Origin: Bacteroidia bacterium | Lineage (GTDB): Bacteria > Bacteroidota > Bacteroidia > Bacteroidales > UBA7960 | DNA length: 48,379 nucleotides | Direction: 5' to 3' | Assembly (NCBI GenBank): GCA_007695305.1 | Contig: REEA01000129.1 | Location: 1 to 48,379 of the forward strand | Part shown: in pieces, positions 2,799-32,984 of the stretch | Layout of the letters: every line of letters begins with the position of its first letter | How positions within the stretch are numbered: the first letter of the stretch is position 1 | Translations under genes and position numbers: made by a program | The notes under the pieces: generated by a model | Told to the model about the DNA's origin: nothing | The model's database searches: none | Seen by the model: only the letters and a program-made list of their open reading frames with translations

Positions 2799-3977
2799 AT
2801 GCGCAGCATGAACATCAGGATCAGGCTGGTTGCCTTCCGGGATGCTCCGGCGGAAGTCTGTGAGCAGGCCCAAAACCACCTCACTAAGGGTTTTCCAAAT
2901 ATTCATTTTACTTTTGCTGATCAGTCCCCTGATGTAATATGTTTTGCCAGTGGAGGCTCTGAGGAAATGGCTGTTTCTCTGATGGAACCCGGGCGGTTTT
3001 ACCTGCTACTGGCCGGTGATCAAGGAAACGCTTATGCCGCAGCTACTGAAGTCAAAGCATGGGCAGACCTCAACGGAAGGTCCACAAAGCTTGTTACCAT
3101 CAAACAGGCCATGGAAGAAAATATCCTTGTTCATTTGTCCGGTATAACCCAAGCCCGTCATCTGCTGCAGCAGCAGAAAGCTGCTTTGATAGGGGAGGTT
3201 TCCCATTGGCTTGTTGCTTCACATTTTCCGCTGTCGCTAGCCCGGGATCGTTTTGGGATCAACATGATCCATCTTCCCTGGAAAACCTTGCCAGACTATT
3301 TGGAATGCCCGCCGGACCAAGAGTTTTTGAATGTTTTTGCTGAAATCCAGGAAAAGAATCTTGAAAAAGAAGCCCGCATCCATACCTTTATTCAACAAAT
3401 CGTTACGGAATACAAATTGGATGGCGTTTCTGTGGAGTGTTTTTCCATGGTTAAAGATCGGGGTGTAACGGCATGTCTATCTTTGGCGTTATTAAACAGC
3501 CAAAATATTTTGGCCGCTTGCGAGGGCGACTTGGTGAGCCTGACGGGCATGATGGTCGTCAGGGCCTTAACAGGGCACGTTCCATGGATGGCCAATGTGG
3601 CATCCATCAACCACCACCATGTTCTATTTGCACATTGTACCGCTCCTTTACACGTTGTTCGCGCGTATTCATTACCTACCCATTTTGAAACTGACAAATC
3701 TGCAGCAGTGCAGGGTGTTTTGGATATGGAAGATGTGACGATTTACCGCCTCAATGCTCAACTGAACAAAGCTTTTATTGCAGAAGGAAAGATTGTTTCC
3801 AGACCTCAGCATGATTTTGCCTGCCGCACACAGGTTGAGGTAGCTCTTTCTTCCGCAGACTTGCACTCATTGCGTGAAAATCCGCTTGGCAATCATCATC
3901 TCATTATTCCGGGCAGGTATGGCAATATGTTACGATGGTTTGGGTTGGTCTTCGGGCTTCAGGCAATACAAGGATGA
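2799..3977 (+). CDS. L-fucose/L-arabinose isomerase-like protein
   Basis: C-terminal FucI-like signature: VECFSMV...ACLSLALLNSQNILAACEGDLVSLTGMMVVRALTG and GNHHLIIPGRYGNMLRWFGLVFGL. Confidence 0.6.
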   Translation: MRSMNIRIRLVAFRDAPAEVCEQAQNHLTKGFPNIHFTFADQSPDVICFASGGSEEMAVSLMEPGRFYLLLAGDQGNAYAAATEVKAWADLNGRSTKLVTIKQAMEENILVHLSGITQARHLLQQQKAALIGEVSHWLVASHFPLSLARDRFGINMIHLPWKTLPDYLECPPDQEFLNVFAEIQEKNLEKEARIHTFIQQIVTEYKLDGVSVECFSMVKDRGVTACLSLALLNSQNILAACEGDLVSLTGMMVVRALTGHVPWMANVASINHHHVLFAHCTAPLHVVRAYSLPTHFETDKSAAVQGVLDMEDVTIYRLNAQLNKAFIAEGKIVSRPQHDFACRTQVEVALSSADLHSLRENPLGNHHLIIPGRYGNMLRWFGLVFGLQAIQG

Positions 3978-3994
3978 AAGTTATAAGGAGTAGA

Positions 3995-4018
3995 GGTCGA
4001 AAGGTCGAAAGGTCGAAA
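3995..4018. repeat. Tandem repeat, 3 x 8 bp (ggtcgaaa)
   Basis: Three perfect copies of ggtcgaaa read directly from the sequence. Confidence 0.95.
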
Positions 4019-4085
4019 GTCTCTTAAGTCTCTTAAGTCTCTTAAGTCTCTTAAGTCTCTTAAGTCTCTTAAGTCCATTAAGTCC
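4019..4085. repeat. Tandem repeat, 6 perfect x 9 bp (gtctcttaa) plus one variant (gtccattaa) and a partial copy
   Basis: gtctcttaa repeated six times at 4019-4072, then gtccattaa and gtcc; abuts the ggtcgaaa array. Confidence 0.97.
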
Positions 4086-4131
4086 AGCTTATCCCTCAGC
4101 TCCCAGCTCCCCAAAACATTATCATCATTGT

Positions 4132-4779
4132 TCAAAACGGTTTTGGTCTGAAATCCTCGCTGTTGATGATGCTGGCGCTTTTCCCGGTAGCCCTGATGAC
4201 GAAAAGGCCGTTGTTTTCGGCCATCTGAATACAATTCTTATCAGCCCTGAGATAGGCCACGGCGCCATACACGGTCATATCGCTGTAGCGGGGCATCCAG
4301 ATTTTGACTTTTTCCAGCTTCTCGAGGAAATATTTCACATCTCCGGTCTTCATGGTGGTTTTTACTTCCACGAATACCAGCTCGTTACCATTCTCCGCCA
4401 GGATATCAAATTCGTAACCTGGTCGGGGCTGCTTGCTTTCAATGCGCTGCTGCGTCCGGTGTACCTTGATGCCCCTGGCATTGAGCAGCTGGATCAGGTC
4501 TCCTTCAATAAGCGATTCCATCAACTTTCCCCACTGTGATGTAAACAGTTCGCTGAGTTGCTTCAGTTTCTTATCGGTTGCCTTAAATTGCTTTTCTGTT
4601 TCCTTAAACTGTTCAGCAGTTTCCTGAAATCGCTTGTCCGTTTCCTGAAATCGCTTGTCTGTTTCCTGAAACATTCTCCATACATCACGGGCACTAAGGG
4701 GCTGCGCATATGATGCTTCAGGTTCATTCAGCCCGGATGTGCCGGACTTCGGGTTTCGATACTTTTTTCGTTTGCTCAT
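4132..4779 (-). CDS. Coiled-coil protein with C-terminal PD-(D/E)XK nuclease-like fold (DUF3782-like), paralog A
   Basis: Heptad-type coiled coil FQETDKRFQETDKRFQETAEQFKETEKQFKATDKKLKQL, then YEFDILAENGNELVFVEVKTT (D...E-x-K nuclease-like motif); close paralog of 4988-5572. Confidence 0.75.
   Translation of the reverse strand: MSKRKKYRNPKSGTSGLNEPEASYAQPLSARDVWRMFQETDKRFQETDKRFQETAEQFKETEKQFKATDKKLKQLSELFTSQWGKLMESLIEGDLIQLLNARGIKVHRTQQRIESKQPRPGYEFDILAENGNELVFVEVKTTMKTGDVKYFLEKLEKVKIWMPRYSDMTVYGAVAYLRADKNCIQMAENNGLFVIRATGKSASIINSEDFRPKPF
4578..4672 (-). repeat. About 21-bp in-frame tandem repeats encoding coiled-coil heptads
   Basis: tttcctgaaatcgcttgtccg / tttcctgaaatcgcttgtctg / tttcctgaaac plus diverged tttccttaaa units; about five units here versus two in the paralog. 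Confidence 0.8.
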
Positions 4780-4888
4780 CTTCTTTATTGCTTATTCAGC
4801 TATGGCCAATTTGTGTAAACATTTGCTTCATGATTTATTTTTCATAAAGGAACCTCCGCTGAGACTATTTATAGTAACTACATTTTGT

Positions 4889-4908
4889 TAGCTATTGATA
4901 GCTATTGA
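4889..4908. repeat. Direct repeat, 2 x 10 bp (tagctattga)
   Basis: tagctattgatagctattga. Confidence 0.85.
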
Positions 4909-4953
4909 GGTCAGTTTTCGCTTTGTATTCCACTTTCTGCGTTTGAGCCTCGC

Positions 4954-4988
4954 CAATTATCAATCACCAATCATCAATCACCAATCAT
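4954..4988. repeat. Short tandem repeat: 7-bp period (caattat caatcac caatcat caatcac caatcat), i.e. 2 x 14 bp
   Basis: Direct reading; ends at the stop codon of paralog B. Confidence 0.9.
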
Positions 4989-5572
4989 CAAAACGGTTTT
5001 GGTCTGAAATCCTCGCTGTTGATGATGCTGGCGCTTTTCCCGGTAGCCCTGATGACGAAAAGGCCGTTGTTTTCGGCCATCTGAATACAATTCTTATCAG
5101 CCCTGAGATAGGCCACGGCGCCATACACGGTCATATCGCTGTAGCGGGGCATCCAGATTTTGACTTTTTCCAGCTTCTCGAGGAAATATTTCACATCTCC
5201 TGTCTTCATGGTGGTTTTTACTTCCACGAATACCAGTTCATGGCCATTTTCCGCCAGGATATCAAACTCGTAAGCCGGTCCTGGCTGTTTGCTTTCAATG
5301 CGTTGCTGCGTCCGGTAAACCTTGACACCCCTTGCATTAAGTAAAGGTATCAGGTCGCCTTCCACCAGCGATTCCATCAGTTTGCCCCATTGCGATGTAA
5401 ACAATTCGCTGAGCTGTTTCAGTTTCTTGTCCGTTTCCTTAAACTGTTTATCCGTTTCTTTAAACAGTCTCCAAACATCCTGGGCACTCAGGGGCTGCGT
5501 GTATGGCACCTCAGGTTCATTCAGCCTGTTGCTGATGATCTTCGGGCTTTTGTACTTTTTTCGCTTGTTCAT
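4988..5572 (-). CDS. Coiled-coil protein with C-terminal PD-(D/E)XK nuclease-like fold (DUF3782-like), paralog B
   Basis: Same architecture as 4132-4779 with a shorter coiled coil (FKETDKQFKETDKKLKQL) and identical C-terminus. Start set at MNKRKKYK (5572) by alignment to paralog A; the ORF is open to 5641. Confidence 0.75.
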   Translation of the reverse strand: MNKRKKYKSPKIISNRLNEPEVPYTQPLSAQDVWRLFKETDKQFKETDKKLKQLSELFTSQWGKLMESLVEGDLIPLLNARGVKVYRTQQRIESKQPGPAYEFDILAENGHELVFVEVKTTMKTGDVKYFLEKLEKVKIWMPRYSDMTVYGAVAYLRADKNCIQMAENNGLFVIRATGKSASIINSEDFRPKPF

Positions 5573-5939
5573 AATCAGTATCCTCTTTTCAGCATTAATC
5601 GATATGTGTAAATAGATACTTAATGCATAAAACTTATACAAAAATATATAAAATTTAACCTTATTACAAAAAAATATCTATAAAATAATTTAAACGGTCA
5701 ATTATGGTATTTAAGCGGTTGTGGTTTACTTCCGGGAAAAAGACCGGGTGCTGTATTTGATCATGGTAAAAAGTAATAAACACTTGACAGGAACGAGGGA
5801 AGGGGTGCTTTCCGTTGTTATGTTTTTTCTTTATCTTTACATGATCAAAAATGTCCGGGACGATCATGTCCGGATAAATGTAGCACAGGAAACTGAAATC
5901 CCTGACTTTTTCAGACAATAATACAAAGACTATAAACAT

Positions 5940-6131
5940 ATGGGAAAAGCCATTGTAAAATGCACCATCGCCACCTATGGGATCGATGAATATGTGGTGG
6001 AAGTCCCCTGCGGTAAAGACGATGTGGACGAGATCATTATCTCAAAAGCATGGAAAAAACTCAAGGATGATGAAGGCGGATCACTTCCTTATGGTGGTCG
6101 CTCAGCAGAAATCCTCAAACGCATTGATTGA
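5940..6131 (+). CDS. Small hypothetical protein (63 aa)
   Basis: ORF MGKAIVKCTIATYGIDEYVVEVPCGKDDVDEIIISKAWKKLKDDEGGSLPYGGRSAEILKRID in an otherwise noncoding stretch with plausible protein composition. Confidence 0.55.
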   Translation: MGKAIVKCTIATYGIDEYVVEVPCGKDDVDEIIISKAWKKLKDDEGGSLPYGGRSAEILKRID

Positions 6132-32785: not shown

Positions 32786-32793
32786 TATTTTTG
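32786..32793 (+). promoter_or_regulatory. Probable -7 element (TATTTTTG) for SRP RNA
   Basis: Located just 5' of the SRP RNA start, at appropriate spacing. Confidence 0.5.
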
Positions 32794-32797
32794 CACC

Positions 32798-32893
32798 GGG
32801 TAAGTCTGGTACGACCAGCTCCCGCTGAATTCCCCCAGGACCGGAAGGTAGCAAGGGTAAGCGGTCGTAGCGGTGCGATATCAGGTCTTACCC
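32798..32893 (+). ncRNA. ffs: Bacterial small SRP RNA (4.5S)
   Basis: Terminal pairing gggtaag.../...cttaccc and conserved apical region ccccaggaccggaaggtagcaagggtaagcgg. Confidence 0.93.
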
Positions 32894-32984
32894 TTCTTTT
32901 TTGGCAAAGGACACTTTTTTGGTTTTAATGCCCGGAGCCAAACAACCCGGATAAACATTTCTAATAACAATTAAATACAAAAAA

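Follow-up and report, generated by a model that had tools for sequence, protein, structure and literature searches.

Two neighbouring minus-strand genes, each encoding a coiled coil joined to a nuclease-like domain, have short-period tandem arrays at their 3′ sides. Do gene and array form one unit, as the first-pass annotation of this DNA suggested in reading the layout as a mobile or amplifiable gene-plus-3′-repeat cassette, or do two separate features adjoin here? The locus lies in a 48,379-nucleotide stretch from a Bacteroidia bacterium (the window), and its features are as follows (coordinates are window positions; TRF, Tandem Repeats Finder).

2799–3977, plus strand: left-edge flanking gene, a synteny marker (synteny comparison)
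3994–4019, no strand: 8-bp array AGGTCGAA (TTTCGACC on the other strand), 3.2 copies (TRF)
4017–4084, no strand: 9-bp array AAGTCTCTT, 7.6 copies (TRF)
4097–4111, no strand: 7-bp words CAGCTCC, 2.1 copies, in the word order of a dispersed element (TRF, element comparison)
4132–4779, minus strand: gene A, coiled coil plus PD-(D/E)XK nuclease domain, 215 residues (ORF, alignment A1, AlphaFold2 domain 82–215)
4132–4344, minus strand: 213-bp tract of A, identical to B 4988–5200 (sequence alignment)
4360–4518, minus strand: predicted active-site codons of A, E88, D125, E138 and K140 (conservation in 26 sequences; coordinates computed from the gene start)
4570–4671, minus strand: 21-bp coding tandem repeat, the coiled-coil heptads of A (TRF, period 21, 4.9 copies)
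4953–4991, no strand: 7/14-bp array CCAATCATCAATCA, 2.8 copies, overlapping the stop codon of B (TRF)
4988–5572, minus strand: gene B, tandem paralogue of A, 194 residues from ATG (ORF, A–B comparison)
4988–5200, minus strand: 213-bp tract of B, identical to A 4132–4344 (sequence alignment)
5940–6131, plus strand: right-edge flanking gene, 63 residues, which lies next to the left flank where the site is empty in genus-mates (synteny comparison)

The open reading frames, together with 94% identity between the two proteins over their last 158 residues, bear out the pair of paralogous genes at 4132–4779 and 4988–5572 that the annotation had described, and its motif YEFDILAENG..LVFVEVKTT is found in the protein pair. 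An alternative TTG start would lengthen the reading frame of B to 5641. The coiled-coil length encoded by the 21-bp repeat varies among paralogues, and similar FQ(D/E)TD(R/K)K heptads are found in several phyla. A further minus-strand reading frame of 91 residues (3959–4234), reading DLRDLRDLRDLRD, is the translated 9-bp array and probably no gene. Elsewhere, the window holds a Bacteroidales small SRP RNA at 32791–32897 (RF04183, 91.2 bits).

In an alignment of relatives (A1), E88, D125 and E138 are invariant in 26 sequences, and K140 is present in 90% or more of them. AlphaFold2 modelled the C-terminal domain of protein A (residues 82–215) at a pLDDT of about 90 with the topology H-E-E-E-H-E-H-E, which is how helices and strands succeed one another in PD-(D/E)XK folds; the preceding helix (residues 30–79) is compatible with a heptad coiled coil. 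The best matching PDB folds for this model were AF1548, EndoMS, Can2 and Card1, all nuclease-like, at E values of about 1e-4 and with modest TM-scores. The structural check that the annotation had proposed thus recovered a nuclease fold, and its assignment of a PD-(D/E)XK-like nuclease is supported: residue conservation and the predicted structure support placing the C-terminal domain of A and B in this superfamily, with nuclease activity as a prediction.

Relatives occur in Bacteroidota, Gammaproteobacteria, Acidobacteriota, Chlorobi-type and Kapabacteria genomes. No protein match appeared among the phage and plasmid records searched, and no conserved neighbour gene (toxin–antitoxin or defence partner) was found at the nuclease loci examined. 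Two Thermoanaerobaculia loci (L084 and L088) carry copies of the nuclease gene; in L088, three or four lie in tandem at roughly 1.3-kb spacing and are 91–94% identical, spacers included. In Contendobacter and Chromatium (L078, L083 and L086), host-specific palindromic interspersed repeats and terminator-like hairpins lie within a few bases 3′ of the nuclease genes, and many small open reading frames surround them. A reading of these copies as integron cassettes was rejected, since the palindromes are host-specific and terminator-like hairpins come after them, and since few attC-like core-site pairs were seen.

The history of the locus can be followed within the genus. In three genus-mates (G004, G017 and G018), about 80–320 bp separate the two flanking genes, and the site between them contains neither nuclease nor array. 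In a sister species (G020), the orthologous site holds a single nuclease gene, of which the 5′ half and the upstream sequence resemble B and the 3′ flank resembles A. Because A and B differ by 13–25% in the 5′ half of the gene, whereas B and the G020 gene are 90–98% identical there, the duplication probably predates the split from the sister species, and G020 would then have lost one copy through recombination between the two genes, leaving a fused one. Judged by their sequences, A and B are an old tandem duplication. The 213-bp tract that they share has its end precisely at the stop codon, past which the two genes have 0 bp in common; such a tract fits gene conversion, bounded by the unrelated arrays past the stop codons. 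An array is also present at the G020 site, but it is a different one (AGTAAGC/AGTAGGC). The comparison of empty sites proposed in the annotation therefore had a divided outcome, in that empty sites do exist in close relatives, whereas the orthologous occupied site carries another array.

The arrays themselves are prominent: together with the 21-bp coding repeat, they include the top three Tandem Repeats Finder scores of the 48 kb (122, 99 and 71). They had been placed immediately 3′ of each stop codon, which holds for B, whose array begins at the stop codon, but not for A, whose main array starts about 48 bp past the stop with the CAGCTCC words in between. The CCAATCATCAATCA array was found at this site alone in the genome. 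By contrast, the 9-bp word AAGTCTCTT matched 60 times, at many places across this genome, in a pattern search, and no exact three-copy array of it appeared in a sample of 296 further genomes of the phylum. Of 96 genomes, 10 contain the 8-bp word AGGTCGAA in dispersed form, and all but one of these belong to the genus. Reversed patterns, searched as a control for the array words, gave zero hits. The array words are genus-specific and dispersed, and arrays adjoin the stop codons of several non-nuclease genes too.

Elsewhere, the words of the window precede, in the same order, a conserved sequence AATCATCCYCCTGTGTGTCAAAAATCCTGTCATGGGYGTTTCAT. The core of this interspersed element is present in 11 of 21 genomes of the genus, with up to 58 copies (zero control hits). 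Element copies in this genome span about 220 bp; the interior of an orthologous one in G020 is longer and contains palindromes. Arrays lie within 250 bp to the left of 20 of 34 element copies versus to the right of 5 of 34, and at 28 of the 34 it is the start of the neighbouring gene that faces the element on the array side (P 0.0002). Copies at L228 (about 1390–1626), L259, L177, L254, L277 and other loci are oriented toward the start codon of the next gene. The element is interspersed genus-wide and combines a constant right end with a hypervariable interior of short words. As its conserved right end is absent from the window (nhmmer), the window arrays, although related to the element interior, are not proven copies of the element. 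No Rfam family scored above its cut-off in the element. A REP-associated transposase (Y1_Tnp), considered as its mover, was rejected: G000, G020 and G006 have it, though not next to copies of the element, and none was found in G005 and G007, each with about 50 such copies.

Do arrays then go with nuclease genes? Within the genus, 9 of 44 nuclease-adjacent gaps contain an array, where 3.2 are expected from gap length (P 0.004); leaving the window out, the figures are 7 of 42 versus 3.1 (P 0.03). In other genera of the order, arrays occupy 3 of 36 such gaps (1.5 expected, P 0.18), and the nuclease loci scanned outside Bacteroidota have no adjoining 7–9-bp array, only two weak ones of 6 and 12 bp. 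These figures are to be read with background rates taken from sampled stretches of the genome, crude longest-ORF gene calls and fragmented metagenome-assembled genomes whose contigs often break inside arrays. As for the 3′-flank enrichment that the annotation had asked about, the genus shows an excess of about twofold in nuclease-adjacent gaps; it lies on both sides of the gene and does not extend to 7–9-bp arrays at the loci scanned in other phyla.

That gene and 3′ array constitute a single mobile or amplifiable cassette could be argued from the layout in the window, where both genes have a 3′ array, from the empty site in the three genus-mates and from the genus-wide count of 3′ arrays (6 of 21 nuclease gaps). 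However, the other 15 of these 3′ gaps are bare, 4 of 24 5′ gaps carry arrays as well, and every array-bearing nuclease copy has its own, different word. With the changed array in G020 and the lack of 7–9-bp arrays beside relatives in other phyla, these observations argue that the arrays do not travel with the gene, and we regard the cassette as hardly tenable. A second possibility is that the nuclease cuts near its own locus or at repeats and that repair expands the arrays, giving an enrichment on both sides. The nuclease is predicted, from conservation and the structural model, to be active, and the array excess in the nuclease gaps of the genus is about two- to three-fold; but that excess is small once the window is left out, other phyla show none, and genus-mates with no detectable nuclease, such as G002, are still array-rich. 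Such break and repair appears unlikely. The broader proposal that the coiled-coil nuclease family is linked to array turnover, cutting intergenic repeats so that repair expands or swaps words near its own genes, is very unlikely.

Genome context may equally well be at work or not: accessory genes and arrays would gather together in intergenic sites under loose constraint. This would agree with a site that is variable within the genus, with neighbour genes that are not conserved, with arrays that adjoin other genes also, and with Contendobacter and Chromatium relatives that adjoin those hosts' own, different interspersed repeats. It is compatible with the account that we favour and would account for the array excess. 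That account, which we hold to be probable, takes A and B as stand-alone accessory nuclease genes from an old tandem duplication and the arrays as a dispersed, genus-specific population that changes independently of them. What counts against it is the remaining excess of about twofold beside nuclease genes of the genus (7 versus 3.1 without the window); a weak biological link between arrays and nuclease genes may exist, although the excess possibly comes from variable sites.

Under the favoured account, A and B would be accessory members of a widespread, DUF3782-like coiled-coil PD-(D/E)XK family, duplicated long ago at a site whose counterpart in several genus-mates is empty; their 3′ parts would be held alike by homologous recombination. 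The coiled coil would multimerise the protein, and the C-terminal domain would cut nucleic acid with metal ions held at E88, D125, E138 and K140. The adjoining arrays would belong to the dispersed intergenic short-word arrays of the genus, some of which form the interior of the ~220-bp element; they would vary independently of the nuclease genes, probably lengthening and shortening by replication slippage or recombination with no role for the nuclease. Two features that looked like one are thereby separated. The nuclease genes are an ordinary tandem pair of known kind; they enlarge a coiled-coil nuclease family that is widely distributed but uncharacterised and, if the identical tract is read as gene conversion, show a recent case of it between tandem copies. 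The dispersed element is the more interesting of the two and merits its own study; it offers a concrete way into the question of how identical short tandem words come to occupy dozens of unlinked Bacteroidales sites.

Among described systems, the nuclease pair resembles the DUF3782 family (PF12644), in which DUF3782 is the coiled-coil part of a prokaryotic PD-(D/E)XK endonuclease family (PMC4786415): an N-terminal coiled-coil stalk is followed by a PD-(D/E)XK domain, as in A and B. The DUF3782-like label given in the annotation fits a paralogue in the same genome (C46), which passes the Pfam cut-off at 24.9 bits, but not A, at 14.8 bits under the cut-off of 24.4, or B, for which no match to this family is listed; only 1 of 26 family members reaches an E value of 0.01 with this profile. 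Hjc-type and other PD-(D/E)XK nucleases (PF01870) are of the same fold class: the Pfam Hjc model is narrowly above its cut-off for both proteins (23.1 versus 21.1 bits), and 21 of 26 members match it weakly across the catalytic region. A and B differ from Hjc-type nucleases in carrying a coiled coil and in being bacterial, and an assignment as Hjc Holliday junction resolvase at the equivalog level was rejected, the NCBIfam score lying far below the cut-off (23.3 versus 70 bits). Weak CARF-nuclease matches in PADLOC were likewise set aside as reflecting the common fold only.

The ~220-bp element is apparently undescribed. Its nearest described case is the BrickBuilt MITE of Porphyromonas gingivalis (PMC4596501), likewise an intergenic interspersed element of a Bacteroidales lineage, in which constant ends enclose a tandem array. 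Constant ends of this kind were not found around the window arrays, whereas many intergenic copies with an internal array were found in the genus. BrickBuilt consists of a single 23-bp unit with inverted-repeat ends; the present element, by contrast, has many 7–9-bp words and the conserved right end AATCATCCYCCTGTGTGTCAAAAATC, with no inverted ends identified. The intergenic TAACTGA heptamers of Beggiatoaceae, Cyanobacteria and Bacteroidetes (PMC4679880) are also short-period direct repeats dispersed through the genome, but they are built from one word, whereas the arrays described here combine several genus-specific words (7, 8 and 9 bp) in composite order.
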